From the NCBI RefSeq assembly GCF_011193355.1, contig NZ_CP049780.1, positions 1,099,582-1,163,581 on the forward strand: a stretch of 64,000 bases of DNA, in the 5' to 3' direction. Below are positions 18,205 to 30,491 of this stretch, piece by piece. The stretch is from Streptomyces sp. JB150 (GTDB lineage: Bacteria > Actinomycetota > Actinomycetes > Streptomycetales > Streptomycetaceae). The notes under the pieces are model-generated. The model was not told the origin of the DNA, searched no databases, and saw nothing but the letters and a program-made list of their open reading frames with translations. The translations under genes were made by a program, and so were the position numbers. Every line of letters begins with the position of its first letter. Positions within the stretch are counted from its first letter, which is position 1.

Positions 18205-18611
18205 ACCGCTCCACGGCTTCCAGAAGGGCCGGCCGCCGCAAGGGCTGAGCACTTCCGCGGCGACTGCTGGGCACTCCTCCGGCGACTGCCGAGAACTCCC
18301 TCGGCGACCGGCTGCGCACCCGCTGACGGCGTCGCTTCACAGGGCGCCTGTTTCAGCCGACGTGGACCGCCGGCGGATGACGGAACGGCCGATTCCGCGT
18401 CGGATCAGGCCTCCCATGTCCTGATGAGTGCCGCCATGTCGCCCTGGAAGCGGCCGGGCCGATTCCGGCCCGTATAGATCAACTGTTCGGGGGCAGAGCC
18501 CGTCAACTTGTGTGCCTGGTGTGACAGCTTGTGCAGCAGTGGCGACCGTGGACGTCGCCACTTCTGACTGTCTGTCGCATTTCTCTTCTGACTTCCTGTG
18601 GGGGGAAGCTG
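18205..18611. other. Intergenic region before the YD-repeat gene
   Basis: About 400 bases with no credible gene. Degenerate repeats of GGCGACTGC lie at 18258-18310. A TATAGA box at 18473-18478 could be part of a promoter for the YD-repeat gene, but no matching -35 element is visible. A short GGCCGG/CCGGCC hairpin lies just before it. Confidence 0.35.
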
Positions 18612-21600
18612 ATGCATTCGCGTGCTGGGCGCACGCCGTTTCGGCGTGCCCGGAGAACACACAGAACAGCCTTCGTCGCCGCGATCACCACGGCCGCCCT
18701 GGTGGTCGCCGCGGCGCCCGGCCTCGCAGCGACTCCTCGGCCACAGTTGCCGGAGCCGGAGAGTCCGTGGACGAATGGCATCGCGTCCTCGACACCCGCC
18801 TGAACGACGCCCTCGTGGCCCGGGTGAACCTGTCCAACGGCAACCTGATGCTCGCGGCCACCGACTTCGACATCGCCGGCGTCGGCCAGAAGCTGCAGCT
18901 CGCCCGCACCTACAACTCCCTCGAGGCGCCCTGGGGGAAGGTCTCGCAGCGCTGGTGGCAGGGCTACGAGCGCTACCTCCAGATTGGCGACACCGAGGTG
19001 GTCGTCTTCGACGCCACCGGGGCAGCCCTGCGCTTCAAGCAGACCAGCACCGGCACCTACACCACGCCGACCGGCTACGCCAAGGACCTGAAGAAGAACG
19101 CGGACGGCACCTACACCCTGACCGACCGCAAGTCCGGCAGCCGCGACACCTACGACGCACACGGCACGCTCACCAAGGTCGCGGACAAGAACCACGGCAC
19201 GATCACCGTCGACCAGCACGACGAGAGCGGCGAGCACAAGGGCTTCAAGCTCACCGAGACCCGCTCGGGCCGCTGGATCGACCTGGTCAAGACGTACGGC
19301 AACCAGTGGCAGGCCAAGGACCACACCGGCCGTACCGCCGTCTTCGACCTCGACACGCACGGCCACCTCGCCAAGGTGACCGACACGGCGGGCAAGGCCA
19401 CCTCGTACACCTACGACGGCGACGGCCGCCTGACCAAGGTGACCACCCCGGAGGGCACGGTCACCCTCTTCACCTACGACGGCCACAACCGCGTGACCTC
19501 CATGCAGCGCGCCACCGAGTCGTCGGCCAGCGGCCACACCGGCCCGACCTGGCGCTTCGACTACAGCGCGGCCACGCCGCAGGACGCCGGCACCACGACG
19601 GTCACCGACCCGGACGGCGACGCCACGGTCCACTGGCACAACGCCGACGGCGAGGTCACCAAGGTCAAGGACCCGCTGGACCACTACCGGCACGCCAGCT
19701 ACACCAACCACCTGACCCAGACCACGACCGACGCGATGGGCACGGGGACGGACGGCACGGGCGGCAACGTCACCACCTACGGCTGGGACACCCGTAACAA
19801 CCCGGTCAAGACCCAGCTGCCCATGGGTGCCACCGCGTCGGTGACGGCGTACCAGACGATCGCCGGCACGGACCTGCCGAACGACTTCACCTCCGCCGAC
19901 GGCCGTAAGGACTCGTTCTCCTACGACACCAACGGCAACACCATGTCGGTCACCACGTCCGGCACCGCCGGCGGGCAGCGCACCTACACCTACAACAAGG
20001 CCACCCCCACCTGCGGCGGCTTCGAGGGCCAGCGCTGCACGGCGACGGTGAAAATCAACGACACCCGCTCGTCGAAGACGTCCTTCACCTACGACGACAA
20101 GGGCAACTTGTCCAAGGTCACGCCGCCCGCGCCGCTGGGTGAGACGACGTACACCTACGACGCGCTCGGCCGCGTCGAGACCGTCACCGACGGCCGCGGC
20201 ATCAAGACCGTCTACACCTACGACACCCGCGACCGGGTCACGAAGGTGTCCTCGACCAACGCGACCGTCACCTTCGACTACGACGGCGACGGCAACCTCA
20301 AGGTCCGCACCGACGCCTCCGGCACCACCCGCTGGGACTACGACAAACTCAACCGCGAGAGGATCCGCACCCTCCAGAACGGTGCGCAGACCGCCCTCGC
20401 CTACACCCCGGGCGGCGAGGTCGACCACTACACCGACCCCACCGGGAAGACCGACTACACGTGGGACGCCGCCGGCCGCCTGGACTACCTGACCGCGCCG
20501 GACGGCAAGAAGACCGACTTCGAGCACAACAACAACGACAAGCGCACCAAGACGGTCTACCCCGGCGGCACCACCCAGTCGGCCACCATCGACAAGAACG
20601 GCCGCCCGTCCGCGATCAAGACCACCGCGGGCACGACGACGCTCATCGACCTGACCTACACCTACACCAACAGCGCGGGCAAGGACACCACCAAGATCCG
20701 CACCCGCACCGACAACCTCACCAAACTCAGGACCACCTACGACTACGACACCCAGGACCGGCTCCGTTACGCCCTGGAGACCGACTCCGCGGGTACCCGC
20801 AAGGCGTCGTGGCTGTACTGCTTCGACCAGGCCGGCAACCTCACCAGCCAGGACGGCTCCGCGGCCACCTGCCCCGGCTCGGCGCAGTTCACCTACAACG
20901 ACGCCCTCCAGCTCACCGCCCAGACCGGCTCCACGACACCGTGGTCGTACGACAAGACCGGCAACGAAACAGCCGGCGGCCGCGTCGCCGCGACGGCGCG
21001 GTCGAACGAGAAGTGGACCGACTACCACCAGCTGGCCGACATCACGGTGGGCGGCACGAGCCACGACCTGGTCCACGCGGGCACCGACAACAACGAGCGC
21101 ACGAAGTTCGGTGCGACGTGGTTCCACCACACCGCAGTCGGTCTGGCGTCCACGACCACCAACGGCGTCGACACGGGATTCATCCGCGAACCGGCGGGCA
21201 CCTTGAACTCCATGACGACCGGGGGTAAGTCGTACTACTACCTCACCGACGCCACGGGCAACGTCCTGGGTCTGGCGGACGACACGGGCAAGCGCACGCA
21301 CACCTACGCCTACGGCCCCACCGGCCTGCCCCGCGGCACCACCACCGAGGCAACCCCCCAACCGTTCCGTTATGCCGGTGCCTACCTGGACGCGACGGGT
21401 CTGTACAAGATGGGCCACCGCTACTACGACCCCCAGCTCGGCCGCTTCACCCAGCCGGACCCGTCCGGACAGGAAACCAACCCCTACCTGTACGCGGGCG
21501 GCGACCCCGTCAACAACGGTGATCCCACCGGGCTGCTCTCACTGGACACCCTGGGGAACATCGGCAGTGGGCTTTCCGTTGCCGGCATCGTCTATGAAGG

Positions 21601-21799
21601 CCTGACCGGCGGCCCGGACGCGGCGGAAGCCGCAACGGCGGGTGTCATCGCGGACATCGGCATCACAGGTCTTTGTGAAGCCGGGGCTGCGGCCGTGGGA
21701 GGGCCGGCCGGAGCGGGGGCAGCGGTGCCCTATTGCGCAGCCATAGGAACTGCCGCGGGAGCCTACGTCACGGCGAACTACCAGAACAGCGCGACGTGA
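18612..21799 (+). CDS. Secreted YD/RHS-repeat protein with an apparent frameshift
   Basis: A polymorphic-toxin-like RHS protein of about 1060 residues if repaired. The start ATG at 18612 has GGGGGAA upstream. It encodes a clear Sec signal peptide, with an Arg-rich n-region then TAFVAAITTAALVVAAAPGLAA. That frame stops at 18803, while the body continues one frame back from about 18761 (ESVDEWHRVLDTRLND). About a dozen YD repeats such as YTYDGDGRLTK follow. The RHS core ends PYLYAGGDPVNNGDPTG at 21530. The 88-residue tip is Gly/Ala-rich and hydrophobic. Two tiny membrane genes follow. It could be a real one-base deletion, making a pseudogene, or a sequencing error. I see no slippery heptamer for programmed shifting. 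Confidence 0.8.
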
Positions 21800-21865
21800 G
21801 AGAAATCTGCCCGGACACGGTGTCGACCGTGTCCGGGCAGGACTGATCCGACGGAGGAAGTGACA

Positions 21866-22087
21866 GTGGAACTCGCCAGGAACGAGAGAGAGAACCGCAG
21901 GACTGCGGTGATTCTCGCGGCCATCAGTGCAGTCGAGTTGGTATGCGGGATCGTGCTGGGTTTCCTGTCCTTCCCCTCCTGGGGTATGGCTGACAGTTCC
22001 TTCATGCTGGGCAAAGTATTGAGTGTGGTCTTCATCTGCGGCGCCTTCGCTTGCCTTCTGGCGGCGATGGGAAGGAGCCGGAAGTGA
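21866..22087 (+). CDS. Small two-helix membrane protein, possible immunity protein
   Basis: A 73-residue protein. A charged N-terminus (VELARNERENRRT) is followed by two transmembrane helices, about residues 15-35 and 48-68, and a basic end. The GTG at 21866 is chosen because GGAGG lies eight bases upstream; GTG 21860 is too close to it. It sits 66 bases after the YD-repeat gene, where toxin systems keep their immunity gene. The hydrophobic toxin-like tip upstream makes a membrane-protecting partner plausible, but this is inference from position and topology only. Confidence 0.65.
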   Translation: MELARNERENRRTAVILAAISAVELVCGIVLGFLSFPSWGMADSSFMLGKVLSVVFICGAFACLLAAMGRSRK

Positions 22088-22224
22088 CACACGCGGCCGT
22101 ACTGGCAGCCAGCGGCAAATACTCACCAGTCGAAAACGCGCAGGATGCGCTCGTCTTCACCATAGTTTTCGTCGCGATCATCGTCGCGCTGTACATACTC
22201 GTGAAGATCCGACGCGGTAGGTGA
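22084..22224 (+). CDS. Tiny membrane protein coupled to the preceding gene
   Basis: A 46-residue protein starting VTHAAVLAASGKYSPVEN, with one strong transmembrane helix (LVFTIVFVAIIVALYILV) and a basic KIRRGR end. The GTG overlaps the stop of the previous gene as GTGA, and AAGGAG lies six bases upstream, so translation is well supported. The topology (outside-facing N-terminus, basic C-terminus) suits a single-pass peptide. Function is unknown; position suggests a second component of the YD-repeat cassette. Confidence 0.6.
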   Translation: MTHAAVLAASGKYSPVENAQDALVFTIVFVAIIVALYILVKIRRGR

Positions 22225-22320: not shown

Positions 22321-22384
22321 CCCTCGAGTGTGCCAACCGGTCCGCCCCCCCGCTACGGGAGCGGACCGGTTCGGCGTTCGAGGG
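22321..22384. terminator. Nested hairpin terminator
   Basis: A perfect 11-bp stem (22335-22345 with 22361-22371) lies inside an outer 7-bp stem CCCTCGA/TCGAGGG (22321-22327 with 22378-22384). It separates the YD-repeat cassette from the converging SMC operon, and could end transcription from both sides. Confidence 0.75.
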
Positions 22385-22433: not shown

Positions 22434-25400
22434 TCAGGTCGTCGACGGCGCCGGGCGCTTGTACATCCTGGTCGCGGTGATCTCGCTGTGGACCGCCTCC
22501 CCCGCCTGCGGCGGCTTCGGCAGGCCGGGGCGAAGGTGCTCCTCCACGCTGATGTACTTCAGGCCGGCCCGCAGGTCCGCGTCGTTGCGCAGGCGGATCA
22601 CCAGCGGGAACTCGGCGAGCGCCGTGGTGTCGAACAGGCCGGTGGTGTACAGCAGCTGCACGCCCAGCGCGTCCGAGACCGCGCGCTGGAGCTCCAGCAG
22701 GTACGTCGCGTTGGCGCGGCCGATCGGGTTGTCGAGGAACAGGGTGCCCGCGTGGCGGTGCTTGTCGCTGCGGCCCCGGTCGTTGGAGCGCAGGGCGGCC
22801 ATCGTGCAGTACAGGGCGATGGCCGCGGTGAGCAGCTGGCCGCCGGAGAACACGTCACCCATCTGTCCGACGGGCACCCGCTCGGCGCGCAGCACCGCGT
22901 CGGGCTTGAGGATCTCGACGGCGACGCCCTTCGGCTGGAGCGCGGCGGCGACTCCGCGCAGCAGCAGGGACATGCCGTCGCGGCGCAGGTCGGAGTTCTT
23001 CTTGACCGCCGCGCGGGTGGCCTCGTCGATGACCTCGCCGAGGCGTTCGGTGAGGGTGGCCTGGTCTGGTTCCTCGAAGCGGATGCGCAGGAACTCCTGC
23101 CCGGACCACTCGCCGAGCCCTTCCGGCAGCCGGGACAGCCGCTGCGCGGAGCGCAGGGTGGCGAGGGCGGACTCGACCATGCCGCGCAGCCGGTCCACGA
23201 TCGAGTCGCGGTTGCGCTCCAGCTGCGCCAGCTCGTCGGTGAGGACGCGCAGCCGGGGCGCGAAGGCGTCCGCCCAGCGCTGGGCGTGCTCGGGCAGGGC
23301 GGACGCGGGCAGTTCGCGGATCTGCTGCCGGGCGGGGGTGCGCACCTGCTCGTAGCGGGTGGAGTTGGCGTGCCGCACCAGGACGTCGCTCGCCTCGCGG
23401 ACGGCGGCCTCGGCGGCCGAGAGGTCGGCGGCGCAGCCGCGCAGCGACCGGCGGGCCTCGGCGGCGGCCTGCCGGGCCTCCTCCAGGCTGCCCGGGTACG
23501 GTTCCGGCTGCTCCTGGTCGTCCTCCGCGGCGGGCTCGCGCAGCAGGTCGCGCAGGAGGGCGGCGATCTCGTCGAAGCCGCCGGCCGCGTCCTCGGCGGC
23601 GCGGTGGGCGGCCAGCAGTTCGGCGTGCGCCTCGCGGGCCTGGGCCAGCGCCTCGGTGCGGGAGGCGAGTTCGGCGGTGGCAGTGCGCAGCAGCGCCTGG
23701 GCGTGCTCGGCGTCGCGCGGGACCAGCTCCTCGGGCAGCTCGGTGTGCGCCTCGCCGTCCTCGGGGGCGTGCCGTTCGGCCTCGCCGCGCAGCCGGCCCA
23801 GCTGCTCGCTGGCGGTGGACATCCGGGTCTCCAGGAGCTGCACCAGCTCCTCCGCGCGGGCCGCGGCGGCCTGCCGGGACGGCCCGTCGGAGCCGTCGGG
23901 GGACTGGAGCAGCTGCTCCGCGCGGGTGCGCACCTTGTTGCTGAGCCGGTCCAGTTCGGCGCGGGCGGCGCTCTCGTCGCTTTCCGCGCGGGCCTGCTCG
24001 GCGCGCAGGTCGGCGCCGACGCCGACCTTCTCGTACACCTGGGAGGCGGCCCGGTAGGCCTCGCGCAGGGCGGGCAGGGACGCCTTGGGCGCGTCCGTGT
24101 CCGGTTCCGGTACGTCGTCGGGGGCGCCGGCGATCTCGGCGCGCTCGGCACGCAGGGCGCGGGCGGTGCGGCGGGCGTCGTCGGCGGCGCGCTGGGCGGC
24201 GCGGCGGTCCTCGTCGGCGGCGCGGGCACGTTCCAGGCAGGCCTGGGCGCGGGCCTCGGACTCGGCGGCCTCGTCGGCGAGTTCGCGCAGCTTGGCCTGC
24301 CAGCCGGCCCGTTCGCGCAGCCGGAAGGCGAGGCCGGCGAGGGCGTCGGCGGCGCGCCGGGCCTTCTGGGCGGCCTCCTGCTTCTCGTCGCGGACCCGGG
24401 CGGCCTCGGTGGCGGCTTCCTCGGCCTCCGCGTGGACGGTGCGGGCCTCGGCCAGCTCGGCCTCGGTCTCCTCGGCGAAGGCGCGCGCCTCCTGGGCGGT
24501 GCGGGCGAGTTCGGCGAGGCGGCCGGCGGGGCAGCCGGTGCGCCAGGAGGCGAGCCGGGCGGCCAGTTCGCGGTCCTTGCCGAGGCGGGCGGCGAGGGCG
24601 CGGATCTGCTCGTCGCGCTCGGTCGCGCGGGCGCGCAGGGCCTGTCGTTCCTCGTCGGCGGCGTGTTCGTCGTGCATGGCCGGGTTCGGCGGGACGAGGA
24701 AGACGTCGCCGGAGCCGGCGGCCGGGGTGGGGGCGAGCAGGGCGGCGGCGGTGCCGACGGCCACGGCGGACCGGGGCAGCAGCGCGGCGTCGCTGAGGGC
24801 TTCGCGGGCGCGGGCGTGCGAGTCGGGGTCGGTGATGATCACGCCGTCGACCAGCTCGGGCCGGGCGGCCAGCACGCGCGCGTGGTCGGCGGGGTCGACG
24901 GCCTGGGCGAGGTAGCGCCAGCCGGGGAGCGCGGGGATGCCGTGCTCGCCGAGGAACTCGACGGTGGCCAGCACGTCGGGGCCGGGCGGCAGCAGCCCGC
25001 CGTCGCCGAGCGCGCCGAGGATGCGGGCGTCGTCGGCGGCGGCGGTGCGCAGGTCGAACAGCTGTCGCTCGGCGGAGGAGACCGCGTCGTCGAGGAGTTC
25101 GCGCAGCTCGTCGGCGAAGCGGTCCAGCTCCTCGGCGGTCAGGGCGGTCGCGGCGGGTGCGGTGTCGTCCTCGGGGGTGCCCTCGCCGTTGCGGGGCGCG
25201 GGCACCAGGGCGCGGGCGCCGGCGGAGGCGCCGGGCAGGCTCAGCAGTTCCGCCAGCCGCTGCTCGGCGGCCAGCGCCTCGGCGGTGCGCCGTTCGCCCT
25301 CGTACGCCCGTTCGGCCGCGGTGGCGGCGTCGGCCGCGCGGGCGGCGGTCAGCTCCGCGCGGGACTCGGCGGCGGCCGCCTCGCGCGCGTGCTCGGCGGC

Positions 25401-27074
25401 CCGGCGGGCGGCTTCGCGGGCGGTGTCCCAGGCGGCGACGGCGCTCTTCTCGGCGTCGCTGGCGGCGAGGGCGGCGCGCGCGGGGTCGGCGTCGGGGGCG
25501 CTGTCGTCGAGCCAGCCCGCGCGGACCGCTTCGGCGGTCTCCTGCTCGACCTCGGCGAGGCGCTGCCGCAGGTGCCCGATCTCGCTGCGGGCGCGCTGCG
25601 CCTCGGTGGCGGCGGCGGTGGAGTCCCGGTAGGCGAGGTCGCCGGCCTCCTGGAGCGCGGCGGAGCGCTCCTCCTCCTCGTTGGCCAGGGTCTCGGCGCT
25701 CTCGGCGGCGGCGTGCAGGGCGCGCACCAGATCGACGGCGGCCTTGGTGCGGGCGGCGAGCGCGGGGGCGGCGTCCCGCTCGGCCTCCTGGATGGCGGCG
25801 GCCACGCGGGCGACCCGGTCGGCGGCGGCGCGGTGGCGCAGCACGGCCTCGGCGGCCTGCCAGGCGGAGTGCAGGGTGCGCGCGTCGGCGAGTTCCCGCT
25901 TCTGCGCGGCGGCGGCCTTCTCGGCGGCGGCGAGCGCCAGGGAGGCGTGCCGGTAGGCGAGTTCGGCGGTGATCAGGGCGCTGCGCTCGCGGGCGCTCTC
26001 GGCGTGGGTGACGGCGTAGGCGGCGGCGGTGACCCGCTGGGCGAGGTCGGCGGCGCGCACGCGTTCCCGGGCGCCGCGCGCGGAGAGCCGGCGGGCCAGG
26101 GTGCGGGTGCGCCGCTCGGCTCCGGCGTGCACGTCGCGCGCGCGGGAACGGGCCTCGGCTGCCTCGACGATCTTCCCGAGCAGGTCCACGGACCCGGCGG
26201 TGAAGTCGCGTTCGGCGATCAGCTCGGCGCGGCGGCCCAGCTTGTTGCCGAAGCCGCTGACGAGGTCGGCGAGCCCGTCGGTGTCACGGGTGTCGGTGAC
26301 GGCGCGCAGCAGCAGGTCGGTGAAGTCGGAGTCCTTCTTCACCGCGAACAGGCCGGCCGCCTCGCCCTCGTCGGCGTTCATCTCGCGCTGGTACCGGAAG
26401 AGTTCGGGGTCGAGGCCGAGTTCGCCGAGGTGTTCGGTCCAGCGCTCGTGAATCTCCTCCCAGTGCACCTCCAGGTGCGGGTAGGCCTTGCCGGCGTCGG
26501 TGAGGGCGTCGCGGAAGCCCTTCATGGTGCGGCGGCGGCCCTGGGCGCCGGACTGGCCCTCGGCGGGCGGGCGGACGGCGGTGGACTCGGCGACGGGCAG
26601 GTTGTCGAGGGTGAGTCCGGGGCCGGGCCGGAAGGAGTACCAGGCCTCGGCGAACTTGCGCGGGTCGTTGGAGACCTGCCGGCCGCGCCATTCGCTGACC
26701 TTGCCGACGACGACGCACTCGCCGGTCTGCACGTGCTGCCACTCCAGGGCGACGTGGCCGCAGTCGTCGGCGAGCAGGAACTTGCGCAGCACGCCGGAGC
26801 TGGCGCCGCCGAGGGTGTTGCGGTGGCCCGGCAGCATCACCGAGAAGATCAGCTTGAGCAGGACGGACTTGCCGCCGCCGTTCTCCAGGAAGAGGACGCC
26901 TGCGGGCGCGGGGCGGCGCGGCGGGCCGACGGGCTCCTCCTCGAAGAACTCCGCCTGGGCGGGCGCGGGATCGGGCACGGGCGCGCCCACCCCGCGCAGG
27001 TCAAGCACGGTGTCGGCGTAGCGCGCACCGGCGGGCCCGATGGAGTAGAGGCGGACCCGGGACAGCTCGTACAT
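22434..27074 (-). CDS. SMC-like ATPase (MksB/JetC type)
   Basis: A 1546-residue SMC/MukB-like ATPase. The P-loop LENGGGKS is at residues 63-70. Two long Ala/Glu/Arg coiled-coil arms run at about 300-640 and 810-1270 and flank a globular hinge at about 650-800 (GIPALPGWRYLAQ). The ABC signature VFSGGQLL is near 1408-1415. The Walker B strand is LFLDNPIGRAN, with Asp1448 followed by Asn1449 where most SMC and Rad50 proteins have Glu. With the two upstream genes it forms a condensin-like set as in MksBEF and Wadjet JetABC. These systems extrude DNA and, with a nuclease, eliminate plasmids. No nuclease gene is adjacent. Confidence 0.85.
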   Translation of the reverse strand: MYELSRVRLYSIGPAGARYADTVLDLRGVGAPVPDPAPAQAEFFEEEPVGPPRRPAPAGVLFLENGGGKSVLLKLIFSVMLPGHRNTLGGASSGVLRKFLLADDCGHVALEWQHVQTGECVVVGKVSEWRGRQVSNDPRKFAEAWYSFRPGPGLTLDNLPVAESTAVRPPAEGQSGAQGRRRTMKGFRDALTDAGKAYPHLEVHWEEIHERWTEHLGELGLDPELFRYQREMNADEGEAAGLFAVKKDSDFTDLLLRAVTDTRDTDGLADLVSGFGNKLGRRAELIAERDFTAGSVDLLGKIVEAAEARSRARDVHAGAERRTRTLARRLSARGARERVRAADLAQRVTAAAYAVTHAESARERSALITAELAYRHASLALAAAEKAAAAQKRELADARTLHSAWQAAEAVLRHRAAADRVARVAAAIQEAERDAAPALAARTKAAVDLVRALHAAAESAETLANEEEERSAALQEAGDLAYRDSTAAATEAQRARSEIGHLRQRLAEVEQETAEAVRAGWLDDSAPDADPARAALAASDAEKSAVAAWDTAREAARRAAEHAREAAAAESRAELTAARAADAATAAERAYEGERRTAEALAAEQRLAELLSLPGASAGARALVPAPRNGEGTPEDDTAPAATALTAEELDRFADELRELLDDAVSSAERQLFDLRTAAADDARILGALGDGGLLPPGPDVLATVEFLGEHGIPALPGWRYLAQAVDPADHARVLAARPELVDGVIITDPDSHARAREALSDAALLPRSAVAVGTAAALLAPTPAAGSGDVFLVPPNPAMHDEHAADEERQALRARATERDEQIRALAARLGKDRELAARLASWRTGCPAGRLAELARTAQEARAFAEETEAELAEARTVHAEAEEAATEAARVRDEKQEAAQKARRAADALAGLAFRLRERAGWQAKLRELADEAAESEARAQACLERARAADEDRRAAQRAADDARRTARALRAERAEIAGAPDDVPEPDTDAPKASLPALREAYRAASQVYEKVGVGADLRAEQARAESDESAARAELDRLSNKVRTRAEQLLQSPDGSDGPSRQAAAARAEELVQLLETRMSTASEQLGRLRGEAERHAPEDGEAHTELPEELVPRDAEHAQALLRTATAELASRTEALAQAREAHAELLAAHRAAEDAAGGFDEIAALLRDLLREPAAEDDQEQPEPYPGSLEEARQAAAEARRSLRGCAADLSAAEAAVREASDVLVRHANSTRYEQVRTPARQQIRELPASALPEHAQRWADAFAPRLRVLTDELAQLERNRDSIVDRLRGMVESALATLRSAQRLSRLPEGLGEWSGQEFLRIRFEEPDQATLTERLGEVIDEATRAAVKKNSDLRRDGMSLLLRGVAAALQPKGVAVEILKPDAVLRAERVPVGQMGDVFSGGQLLTAAIALYCTMAALRSNDRGRSDKHRHAGTLFLDNPIGRANATYLLELQRAVSDALGVQLLYTTGLFDTTALAEFPLVIRLRNDADLRAGLKYISVEEHLRPGLPKPPQAGEAVHSEITATRMYKRPAPSTT

Positions 27075-27133
27075 GGCGGACTCTCGTAACGCTTCGGCAG
27101 ATCGGGAGGAACGGGGAGGTGCGGGGGTGCGGC

Positions 27134-28015
27134 TCAGGAGGAGTGGAAGGGCAGTCCGGCGTCGGCCACCAGGTCCAGGTCGTCGCTCTCCTCTGCGGGC
27201 AGCAGGGTCGGTGTGCCGTCGGTGACCGGGACGACGCCCAGTTCCAGCAGTTCGGCCAGCGCCGCGCTGCCCGCCATGTCGCGGACCTGGAGCTGGTACC
27301 GCGCGGTGGTGCGGTAGGTGCCGCCGTTGTCGTCGCCGGTGCGCTGGAGGAAGCCGGAGTCGGTGAGGAACATGACGGCCTTGGCGACGATGCCCGTCGT
27401 GGAGGCGGCCGGCCGGCGCGCGTCCTTGGTGGCGCCGGTCGCGCTGCGTCTCGACCAGACCCGCCAGGCGGCTTCCAGACCGGGCGCGTCCGTGGCCGGG
27501 TCGGTGTTCTCGCCCTGCTCGGCGGCGCGTTCCTCCAGGCGGCGGCAGGCCTGCCGGACGAAGGCGTCGACGCCGTTGACGGTGACGCGGCCGATGTAGC
27601 CGTCGTCGGCGAGGTCCTCGGGGCGCGGGAAGGCCATCGCGGCGACGGCGAGGTGGGCGAGGCCGTGCAGGAAGCGGTCGCCGGAGTCGGCGGAGGTGCG
27701 ACGCGCGTAGTCCCCCATGCGTACGGCGAACACCGAGTCCTCGGCGGCCGTCACGGCCATGCCCGCGCGCGGGGACACCTCCAGCACGACGAGGCCGAGA
27801 CCGGCGGCGACGGCGTCGGCGAGGCGGGCGAACGGCGGGTCCTCCCGGTAGCGGCGCAGCAGGTCGGCGTACTCCTGGTCGCGGGCGGGGAGCAGCTTGG
27901 GCTGGAGCCCGAAGGCGACGAGCCGCGCCGCGTCGGCGGCGTCGGCGGGAGTGACGGGAACCTGCGCCGACGGGGCGGATGCCTCCGGCTCACTCCACTC
28001 GGCGTGCTCGGTCAC
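27134..28015 (-). CDS. MksE/JetB-like (DUF4194-type) accessory protein
   Basis: A 293-residue protein predicted to be the winged-helix KITE-like partner of the SMC complex. It begins with an acidic Pro-rich tail, then helical segments and a winged-helix-like end (GIVAKAVMFLTDSGFLQRT then TYRTTARYQLQVRDM). Assignment relies mainly on its place between the kleisin-like and SMC genes and on size. The GTG start has AAGGAG eight bases upstream. It begins 31 bases after the kleisin-like stop and lies 59 bases before the SMC gene, so one operon is likely. Confidence 0.65.
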   Translation of the reverse strand: MTEHAEWSEPEASAPSAQVPVTPADAADAARLVAFGLQPKLLPARDQEYADLLRRYREDPPFARLADAVAAGLGLVVLEVSPRAGMAVTAAEDSVFAVRMGDYARRTSADSGDRFLHGLAHLAVAAMAFPRPEDLADDGYIGRVTVNGVDAFVRQACRRLEERAAEQGENTDPATDAPGLEAAWRVWSRRSATGATKDARRPAASTTGIVAKAVMFLTDSGFLQRTGDDNGGTYRTTARYQLQVRDMAGSAALAELLELGVVPVTDGTPTLLPAEESDDLDLVADAGLPFHSS

Positions 28016-28046
28016 GGGCGGTGCTCCTTGATGCGCTGGTGCTGGG

Positions 28047-29582
28047 TCATGCTGCTTCCGTCCTGCCGGCCGCCATCCCGGCCGCGTCCAGCAGCGCCGT
28101 GCCGACGATGAGGTCGGCGCCGCCGAACTCGGGGTCGTCCAGCTCGGTGCCGTCGTCCACGGCGAACAGGAGTTTCTCCTCGCCCTGCCGGTAGGCGGTG
28201 CCGACGGGCGGGCTGGCCGCGTGGACGGCCAGCAGGGCGATCAGGTACGGCAGGTCGGGGTCCTGGGGGTGCGTGCGCCTGGCCTCGGCCAGTAGGCCGG
28301 AGAGCCGGCGGGGCGCGTCGGCCGGGAGGTCCAGCAGTTCCGTCGCCGCGGCGAGCTGTTCCTCGCTGAAGCGGCTGTCGTCCGGGGTGGCGATGAGGTC
28401 GGGTTCGGGCATCTCGGCGCCCAGGTGCTCGCGCTCGACGGGCGGGGTGAGCAGGATGTCGACGAGGTCGCCGACACGGACGGACACCGGGGTGCGCAGG
28501 CCGGTGCCCTGCGCGAACCAGGCGTCGGTGACGCGGGTCGCCTGCTCCAGGGGCAGCGGCAGGACGGGGGCGAGGAGGTGGCCGTAGACGTCTATGCCCG
28601 CGGTCGACGCCGGGGTGGCGAAGGCCTGGCGGTCCTGCTCGGCGCGGAACAGGGGGCCGGCTTCCAGCAGGCGGGACTGGAGCTGGGTGTGGCGGCGGAT
28701 GCAGTCCTTGACGATGTCGACCAGCTCGGCGGCGCGGCGCTTGTGCTCGGGGTCCTCGGACTCGTCGCGGGCCTTGCGGATGTTGGTGAGGATCGCGTTC
28801 TCGTGCCGGTAGCGGTCGGCGACGTGGTCGAGGGCCTCGGCGATCATGTCGGGGACGGCGTTGAGCCAGTCCACCGCGCGGACGTTGCGGCGGGTGGCGT
28901 CCAGGGCCTTGCGCAGGGTCTCCGAGTACTGCACGGTGCGGTACCGGGCCTGTTCGGCGGCGAGCTGGGCGTCGGCGAGGCGGCCGCGGCTGATCAGCAC
29001 CTCCAGCTTGACCTCGGCGGCGATCTGGGCACTGGTGACATCGGTGTCGAGGGCGCCGACGAGGACGTTGACCGCCTCGTCGGTGGTGCGCAGGTAGACG
29101 CTGCCGCCGGGGCCGGGGACCTCCTCGATCAGCTTGAAGTCGTAGTCCCGGCGGACGTACGTGCCGTCCGGGCCGAAGGTTCCGTAGACCGCGCGGAAGC
29201 CGCGGTCCACGCTGCCGACGTTGATGAGGTTCTCCAGGACCCAGCGGGCGACCCGCTCGTGCTCGGCGGCGGGCCGCTGCGGGGCCTGGGCGGCGATGCG
29301 CGGGACGAGCCGGGCGACGACCTGTTCGTGGTCGGCGCCGGTGTCGAAGTCCATGTTCAGCGTAACGAGGTCGATCGCGGCGAGGGCGATCTCCGCCATC
29401 CCGTACACCGAGTACTCACCGGCGAGATTCGCCTTGCGGGCGTCGAGGTCGTGCAGCGGCGCGGTGCAGGCGAGCGCGCGCAGCCGCCGCGCCAGTCCCT
29501 CGTCGGCGGCCGGGCCCATGGCGGGGCGCGGCCCCGCGCTGAGCTGGGGCGGAACGCTGTCCGTCGATGCAGGCGAAGTCAC
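28047..29582 (-). CDS. MksF/JetA-like kleisin subunit
   Basis: A 511-residue mainly helical protein and first gene of the three-gene SMC operon, the usual place of MksF/JetA. The N-terminal part (GEYSVYGMAEIALAAIDLVT) looks like a winged-helix start. A long helical middle (LDATRRNVRAVDWLNAVPDM, RYRHENAILTNIRKARDESE) resembles kleisin/MukF arms, and a C-terminal globular domain follows. I infer it bridges the SMC heads. The GTG at 29582 is the best start by conserved length but its ribosome site is weak; ATG 29519 is an alternative. Confidence 0.65.
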   Translation of the reverse strand: MTSPASTDSVPPQLSAGPRPAMGPAADEGLARRLRALACTAPLHDLDARKANLAGEYSVYGMAEIALAAIDLVTLNMDFDTGADHEQVVARLVPRIAAQAPQRPAAEHERVARWVLENLINVGSVDRGFRAVYGTFGPDGTYVRRDYDFKLIEEVPGPGGSVYLRTTDEAVNVLVGALDTDVTSAQIAAEVKLEVLISRGRLADAQLAAEQARYRTVQYSETLRKALDATRRNVRAVDWLNAVPDMIAEALDHVADRYRHENAILTNIRKARDESEDPEHKRRAAELVDIVKDCIRRHTQLQSRLLEAGPLFRAEQDRQAFATPASTAGIDVYGHLLAPVLPLPLEQATRVTDAWFAQGTGLRTPVSVRVGDLVDILLTPPVEREHLGAEMPEPDLIATPDDSRFSEEQLAAATELLDLPADAPRRLSGLLAEARRTHPQDPDLPYLIALLAVHAASPPVGTAYRQGEEKLLFAVDDGTELDDPEFGGADLIVGTALLDAAGMAAGRTEAA

Positions 29583-29780
29583 GGTGCACAGACTAGGTCC
29601 TCGGTCTGACAACGGCCCAAACGGCGGGCGGCCGTGCGAGGGGACCGGGGCGGGGACCGTCCGGCGGGAGCTGCCGGCCGTGCCCCGGCGGTGGCAGGCG
29701 GTGGCCCGGCGGCGCCCCGGCAGTGGCAGACGGTGGCCCCGTGTCGCCCCGGCAGTGGCAGACGGTGGCCCCGTGTCGCT

Positions 29781-30491
29781 TCAGAAGCGGTCGTCCGTAC
29801 CGTCCGTGCCGACCCGGCGCCGGTAGACCTCCACCACGCGTTCCAGGGAGTCGTCGAGGTAGCCCGCGAGCAGGTGCTCGGCGCGGGCGGGGTCGCCCGC
29901 CTGAAGGGCCTTTAGGATCTGGACATTTCGCGCGATGTACGGTTCGTGCAGTTGCTGCGGCTCGTCCACGACGTGGAACGCGAGGCGCAGTTCGGCGAAG
30001 ACGCTGCGCATGAGCTCGTCGGTGCGCTCGCTGCCGGAGAGCGCGACCAGCTCCCGGTGGAAGTGGATGTTGGCCGTGCCCACCGCCTTCCAGTCGCCTT
30101 CGCGCGCGGCCCGCCGGCCCGCCTCGACGGCCGCGGCGAGCGCGTCGACGGCGTACGGCGGCTCGCCCAGCCCCCGGACGACGGCGCACTCGACGAGCCG
30201 GCGGGTGCGGTAGATGTCCTCGACGTCCTCGACGGTCAGAACCCGCACGAAGACGCCGCGGTTCAGCTCGTGGACGAGCAGCCGTTCGTGCGTGAGCAGC
30301 CGGAACGCCTCGCGCAGGGTGTTGCGGGAGACCCCGAGCGCGCCGCCGATGCTCTCCTCCGACAGCCGGGTGCCCGGCGGGAAGTACCCGTCGGCGATCC
30401 GGCTGCGGAGGATGTCCGAGACCCGCTCCGCGGTGCTGGTGCGCCCGAGGAGCGCGCGGTCGTCGGCGAGGTCCGTCAACTGCTCTGCCAT
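29781..30491 (-). CDS. GntR/FCD-family transcriptional regulator
   Basis: A 236-residue regulator. The winged helix at about residues 20-85 contains GTRLSEESIGGALGVSRNTL. The FCD effector domain has the metal/ligand histidine pattern in NIHFHRELVALSGS and LAFHVVDEP. It lies divergent from the 5-oxoproline operon with a perfect palindrome between them, so it is probably that operon's repressor, responding to 5-oxoproline or a related acid. This is inference from location and family habit. Confidence 0.9.
   Translation of the reverse strand: MAEQLTDLADDRALLGRTSTAERVSDILRSRIADGYFPPGTRLSEESIGGALGVSRNTLREAFRLLTHERLLVHELNRGVFVRVLTVEDVEDIYRTRRLVECAVVRGLGEPPYAVDALAAAVEAGRRAAREGDWKAVGTANIHFHRELVALSGSERTDELMRSVFAELRLAFHVVDEPQQLHEPYIARNVQILKALQAGDPARAEHLLAGYLDDSLERVVEVYRRRVGTDGTDDRF

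Follow-up and report, generated by a model that had tools for sequence, protein, structure and literature searches.

What does a Wadjet-type structural maintenance of chromosomes (SMC) cassette do in a chromosome where the nuclease gene that usually completes it is missing? The question is raised by three co-directional genes, jetA-jetB-jetC, at positions 22434-29582 on the minus strand of a 64,000-nucleotide stretch (the window) of the Streptomyces sp. JB150 chromosome (contig NZ_CP049780.1, positions 1,099,582 to 1,163,581). In characterised Wadjet systems, JetABC is the part that senses shape and size, and the cutting is done by JetD, as described in part of PMC10586767. In this study, we found that the absence of JetD from the cassette and its type III Wadjet ancestry are well supported by sequence comparison, and we consider it somewhat probable that JetABC is a type III Wadjet that has lost JetD and turned into a nuclease-free chromosomal SMC complex beside the canonical SMC.

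The open reading frames (ORFs) and profile matches agree with a first-pass annotation, made from the sequence alone, which had described the three genes in the order JetA-JetB-JetC with 511, 293 and 1546 residues. The intergenic gaps are only 31 and 59 bases and therefore fit a single operon. JetA matched the PADLOC model JetA3 (628.8 bits, E 2e-189) and JetC the model JetC3 (1426.5 bits, E = 0), whereas the type I and type II models suggested in the first-pass annotation (DUF3375, DUF4194 and TIGR02680) gave no match when run, and on this sequence evidence the cassette is confirmed as the type III kind rather than types I or II. None of the PADLOC JetB models matched JetB, which was identified from its position and from an identity of 33-52% to its counterparts in seven jetABCD operons; among the B proteins of JetD-containing operons, these models left one without a match and reached another with only E 0.014. 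Nothing meaningful was found in JetA, JetB or JetC with Pfam and NCBIfam: JetC had zero matches at E 1, and the single NCBIfam match of JetA (E 0.14) and the two Pfam matches of JetB (E 0.021 and 0.2) were below the cut-off and unrelated. The P-loop, signature and Walker B that had been read in the SMC protein are present as LENGGGKS, FSGGQ and the Walker-B-like LFLDNPIG.

The cassette is retained almost throughout the family. Among 101 sampled Streptomycetaceae genomes, the host included, JetA was matched in 100 and a core copy was present in 99, across 16 of 17 genera, with the core JetA of the 98 other genomes being 74-94% identical to that of the window. A contig scan revealed at least 556 stretches encoding JetC relatives, 80 of which were kept (82-93% identical; 79 carry the name Streptomyces and one is labelled ‘Actinobacteria bacterium’). 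Synteny across Streptomyces, which had been proposed as a check, held in these loci: the A-B-C order is the same in 77 of the 80, that is, in all with a match to each gene, the other three comprising two that end before A or B (L059 and L071) and one that shows A partially (L051). The median pairwise ratio of nonsynonymous to synonymous substitutions (dN/dS) relative to the window is 0.107 for A (77 loci), 0.162 for B (79 loci) and 0.140 for C (80 loci), and the Walker A motif LENGGGKSVLL, the signature FSGGQLLTAA and the Walker-B block LFLDNPIGRAN are identical in 80 out of 80 loci. Purifying selection together with this motif identity indicates, therefore, that the cassette is not a decaying remnant.

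The retention of JetABC is not matched by that of JetD. A JetD3 search of the 101 family genomes gave matches in 11, eight of which were strong (E 7e-51 or better). In seven of these strong cases (L091-L097) a diverged JetC immediately precedes JetD, and the JetA of the locus is 26-58% identical to the window's; the eighth adjoins a JetC fragment (G080, L129). Five plasmid records contain a JetA match, and JetD stands next to JetC in all three of these five loci that were examined (one from Rhodococcus, two from Streptomyces). Given that distant relatives in seven family loci and three plasmid loci have JetD after JetC, the fourth position in operons of this family is ordinarily taken by JetD. 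L091-L093 had seemed to be without JetD in an ORF list, a reading that was dropped because the JetD3 search finds JetD there. JetD_C and TIGR02679 were matched in 12 and 33 of the 101 genomes, respectively, and coordinate comparison across these genomes placed no JetD3, JetD_C or TIGR02679 match beside a core JetA. Type II JetD is sporadic in the family; L168 (G056) contains a type II locus that has JetA2 as well as JetD2. A mobile origin of the core cassette was considered and rejected: the five plasmid JetA records are all below 60% identity, and the one viral-contig record (L149), whose JetA shares 86% identity with that of the window, is perhaps a misfiled stretch of Streptomyces chromosome.

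The host genome, a single contig of 7,318,937 bases with 98.82% completeness, contains zero matches to JetD_C (PF09983), JetD3 (PDLC00594) and the type II JetD model TIGR02679, all of which gave matches in other family genomes; nor was DUF2399 (PF09664) matched, in a search in which no control gave a match either. Remnants of JetD were sought with a profile of 17 JetD3 proteins against six-frame peptides of the window, of the loci L001-L080, L104-L123 and L134-L148, and of three controls. The three controls and two JetD-containing loci (L106 and L118) were matched, all five having contributed to the profile, and nothing else scored better than E 0.44. The first-pass annotation had left a choice between a nuclease-free branch and a nuclease encoded elsewhere. 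The latter is not supported, the host genome being without type I, II or III JetD matches, while the former gains support from the family-wide retention of JetA, the JetD search and the trees described below. Including the host, 61 of the 99 cassette-bearing genomes are without any match to the three JetD models.

A class-wide JetA profile search of 345 genomes, in which at most four candidates were scored per genome and more copies are possible, matched 51 genomes in 5 of 126 genera, namely 33 genomes from the genus of the window and 18 from a second actinobacterial family, f18. From this second family 18 core-type loci were retrieved; 11 have visible sequence after JetC, none holding JetD, whereas the remaining seven stop short of the JetD position because the contig or stretch is cut off. 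A nineteenth matching f18 genome (G426) has no JetD3 match genome-wide. Three of the 19 (G331, G322 and G404) also carry JetD-containing copies, and in f18 genome G260 a JetD fragment adjoins a JetC fragment. The JetD-less f18 loci have the same kind of ATPase motifs as the window wherever these are readable. When the neighbourhoods of 23 Streptomycetaceae and 12 f18 loci were compared, the only gene clusters common to both families were A, B and C and opposite-strand ORFs overlapping them; no neighbour replacing JetD was common to both. The JetC of f18 (L104-L123) is more variable in length, at approximately 1090-1750 codons from first to last match, and frameshifts are possible there.

In a JetA tree of 57 rows (the window, 10 of the 80 JetC-relative loci, 16 core family loci, 18 f18 loci and 12 JetD-containing loci), the JetD-less Streptomycetaceae form a clade of 27 rows (support 95/96) and the JetD-less f18 loci a clade of 18 rows (support 100/99), with all 12 JetD-containing rows outside both. 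Two of the JetD-containing rows, L125 and L126, were assigned to that class on JetC and JetD pieces (L127, L132) that sit on separate contigs of their genome and are presumed to belong to them. Loci consisting of JetD with a JetC fragment or none (L129, L131, L132 and L133) or of a JetC fragment with JetD (L127) were not used as rows. Both JetD-less clades are retained with support of 100 each in a quick tree of 53 rows built from concatenated JetA, JetB and JetC heads. The trees favour two changes in JetD. We infer that JetD was lost from the cassette rather than gained by its relatives.

We propose that the ancestor of the cassette would have been a type III Wadjet plasmid defence system, from which JetD would have been lost in an ancestor of Streptomycetaceae and also in or before the second family. 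JetA, JetB and JetC would assemble into a MukBEF-like complex of SMC ATPase, kleisin and KITE (kleisin-interacting tandem winged-helix element) subunits, a motor that, lacking JetD, would bind and reel DNA without cleavage. Most likely it would extrude or tether loops of the host's own DNA and so act on the chromosome as a second condensin-type complex beside the canonical SMC, whose gene lies elsewhere in the host genome (both SMC_N halves in one 1239-codon frame, G000:5424078-5427734). Chromosomal action is proposed because of the analogy with MksBEF and because the cassette is retained like a core gene, unlike the JetD systems, which occur only here and there among these genomes; near-universal retention suggests a defence machine turned housekeeping. 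A stronger statement, to which we lend about as much belief as doubt, is that JetABC is an undescribed and near-universal second condensin of Streptomycetaceae that lacks the Walker-B glutamate and whose MukBEF-like origin was separate from the proteobacterial one and may have recurred in another actinobacterial family.

In eukaryotes, Smc5/6 is thought to silence episomes. The main rival explanation holds, along similar lines, that JetABC remains a defence system without a nuclease, still recognising plasmid or phage DNA, which would then be repressed, compacted or mis-segregated but left uncut. Descent from a plasmid-defence family is in keeping with it, as is the discussion of Smc5/6 compacting circular viral DNA in part of PMC10586767, and the signature-residue comparison reported below leaves room for unchanged target recognition. 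Nevertheless, retention in 99 of 101 genomes is unlike the patchy distribution of JetD (JetD3 in 11, JetD_C in 12 and TIGR02679 in 33 of the 101), and we regard this explanation as unlikely, albeit deserving serious attention.

Several observations weigh against a JetABC that has become a chromosomal complex. Retention is not perfect: one family genome has no JetA match (G075), the sole match of another (G010) is at 26% and belongs to a jetABCD, the core JetA is split or contains stops in five (G040, G051, G054, G074 and G084), and in G012 (L140) jetB and jetC look broken while jetA is open. Some of the stops in core JetA hits could simply reflect read-through of the natural stop, and the core JetA hit of G034 ends at a contig edge. 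Such broken-looking copies are what a Wadjet that had recently lost jetD and is now decaying would leave; this explanation is contradicted by the conservation of the cassette (dN/dS of 0.11-0.16 over 77-80 loci, ATPase motifs in 80 out of 80, a core JetA present in 99 of the 101 genomes and in 16 of 17 genera), and we consider it extremely improbable. In f18, only 19 out of 35 genomes, in four of seven genera, have a match. Vertical descent would fit the near-universal presence of the cassette in Streptomycetaceae. The concatenated tree places a JetD-containing group beside the JetD-less Streptomycetaceae clade (support 91), and a single JetD-less clade is not rejected in an approximately unbiased (AU) test (p 0.238; 54 rows, with the long rows L097, L124 and L125 left out).

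A nuclease supplied in trans also has to be weighed, since some JetD, weak matches counted, is encoded elsewhere in 38 of the 99 genomes that bear the cassette. The cassette could then be a working Wadjet served by the JetD of another system, such as the JetD2 found elsewhere in 33 of the 101 family genomes, or by an unrelated nuclease able to evade the models used. However, the host genome matches none of the JetD models (that for PF09664 being without a scoring control), 61 cassette-bearing genomes are without a JetD match, and zero neighbour genes are common to both families; we therefore find a trans-acting nuclease improbable.

The proteins themselves add further points of this kind. In the Walker B of JetC the residue after the aspartate is an asparagine, where the catalytic glutamate normally stands, so that ATP hydrolysis is not a given; the JetD-containing relatives share this asparagine. 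LFLDNPIGRAN or close variants occur in type III JetC with and without JetD alike, the most distant (L097) being outside this reading and the plasmid copies having been scanned for DN only, while two type I loci and one type II locus (L168-L170) have DE (VVIDEAFGRG / ILLDEVFVGVD). Moreover, among 283 columns conserved in JetD-containing loci (nine rows), none is fixed differently in both JetD-less clades (26 and 17 rows), and so there is no sign of retargeting to the chromosome. Structure prediction with AlphaFold2 (AF2) gave JetA a low-confidence model (predicted local distance difference test, pLDDT, 51.9) and JetB a model too poor for its fold to be assigned (pLDDT 49.1) and without a match in the PDB, probably owing to shallow alignments. 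With similarly shallow profiles, hhalign linked neither JetA3 to the type I and II JetA nor JetB3 to JetB1. Complex assembly, loop extrusion, the chromosomal target and the timing of the loss are inferred, as is the role of the cassette.

For all its low confidence, the JetA model agrees with the kleisin-like nature proposed for this protein in the first-pass annotation. In the PDB it comes closest to MukF chains (9gm7_C, E 8.6e-5; 7nz2, E 1.1e-3; 3euh, E 0.07), and it also matches, weakly, the JetA of a solved JetABCD (8q72_E, E 0.13), which supports a predicted kleisin of the MukF kind. When the PDB was searched by sequence, the JetA profile gave one unrelated match (E 0.082) and the JetB profile none.

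MukBEF is a three-part SMC complex without a nuclease, and in this it resembles the cassette, as it does in providing the MukF matches of the JetA model; it differs in that no MukB, MukE or MukF Pfam model matched a cassette protein at E 1 and in that the host has a canonical SMC as well. Smc-ScpAB follows an SMC-kleisin-KITE plan similar to that proposed for JetABC, but JetC has no match to the Pfam model SMC_N, and the SMC gene of the host lies elsewhere in the genome. MksBEFG/Wadjet type I and type II share the overall subunit plan, although they have their own JetD/MksG, a Walker B with DE in the three loci read (L168-L170) and no profile link of types I and II to JetA3 or of type I to JetB3. 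Wadjet type III is like the cassette in its A-B-C order, its JetA3 and JetC3 profiles and the DNPIG variant of Walker B, whereas its homologues (24-56% identical in A and 33-52% in B) lie in operons with JetD and occur sporadically, and the cassette is without JetD and near-universal. A parallel in route is MksBEF of Pseudomonas aeruginosa, described in part of PMC10586767 as likely being JetABCD minus JetD. Like the cassette, it is a nuclease-free three-part SMC set for which JetD loss is proposed; the cassette belongs to a type III branch in Actinobacteria, and a separate event is presumed, MksBEF standing outside our trees.

According to part of PMC10482375, Wadjet is present in 42% of Actinobacteria and is enriched towards the ends of Streptomyces chromosomes. 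Work on Streptomyces chromosome folding, in the parts of PMC8410768 and PMC13121528 considered here, treats SMC as the condensin; the main text of neither paper mentions Wadjet, and one of the two cites a mycobacterial MksB paper. Among titles and abstract openings in the open-access literature, a scope that leaves aside subscription papers and preprints, we found no paper describing the cassette. Homologues of JetA and JetB, among the matches listed, are named hypothetical or uncharacterized and occasionally membrane protein, with some UniRef names referring to DUF3375 or DUF2398. If the proposal is true, the linear Streptomyces chromosome, which is compacted at sporulation, has an overlooked SMC player, and the cassette offers a testable case of a defence SMC becoming housekeeping by nuclease loss, with JetD-containing cousins in the same genus. 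Since the JetA3 and JetC3 profiles strongly match a nuclease-free cassette, surveys using them without JetD would score it as plasmid defence.

Table 1. Positions of the jetABC cassette, its ATPase motifs and flanking features in the window
Feature	Position	Strand	Basis or remark
JetA3-like kleisin	28047-29582	minus	511 aa from GTG 29582; PADLOC JetA3 PDLC00567
JetB3-like subunit, KITE-like by position only	27134-28015	minus	293 aa; homology to jetABCD operons
JetC3-like SMC ATPase	22434-27074	minus	1546 aa; PADLOC JetC3 PDLC00588
Walker A ENGGGKS of JetC (within LENGGGKS)	26865-26885	minus	sequence reading
ABC (ATP-binding cassette) signature SGGQ of JetC (within FSGGQ)	22836-22847	minus	sequence reading
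Walker-B-like LFLDNPIGRAN of JetC, Asn at the usual catalytic Glu	22710-22742	minus	sequence reading
-10-like TAGTCT	29590-29595	minus	7 bases from the GTG start; conserved block 29580-29601
GntR/FCD regulator	29781-30491	minus	co-directional, upstream; Pfam FCD 1e-18, GntR 1.1e-14
Two small membrane-type ORFs	21860-22087, 22051-22224	plus	convergent with jetC; nearest downstream ORFs
15-bp inverted repeat	22335-22371		separates jetC from the convergent small ORFs; may be a T-less terminator

The ORF listing opens jetA at TTG 29612, yet a conserved block surrounds the GTG at 29582. This block, with TAGTCT, is kept in at least 90% of the 45 upstream regions aligned (of 77 extracted), which suggests that jetABC has a promoter of its own and that the predicted jetA start is probably leaderless, 7 bases after TAGTCT. 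A promoter scan upstream of jetA called no sigma-70-type promoter. Motifs of developmental regulators were also considered there and no claim is made for them, as just two GACAC words were found, both outside the conserved block.

The upstream neighbour is indeed a GntR gene, as had been noted. It was matched in 74 of the 80 JetC-relative loci, in one of them displaced (L078), and four of the six loci that miss it do so at contig ends. No match was found in the other Streptomycetaceae loci (L134-L147) or in the f18 loci, and a role as a component of the system was rejected because the gene is matched in no locus outside the genus Streptomyces; it is probably a neighbour local to that genus and not part of the complex.

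Downstream of jetC, the first-pass annotation had placed a converging membrane-peptide gene behind a terminator. Convergent small membrane-type ORFs are present; of the terminator only the T-less inverted repeat remains, a scan requiring a T-tract having found none between jetC and the small ORFs. A conserved convergent membrane-type protein lies downstream of jetC in a number of loci (for example L001:16385-17320, minus strand): it occurs in 15 of the 23 Streptomycetaceae loci compared, in 40 of the 67 JetC-relative loci with both flanks and in 0 of 12 f18 loci. In the window, an RHS-repeat gene (DUF6531; 18428-21799, plus strand) converges with jetC and is followed by the small ORFs, which could encode its immunity partner or be unrelated to it.

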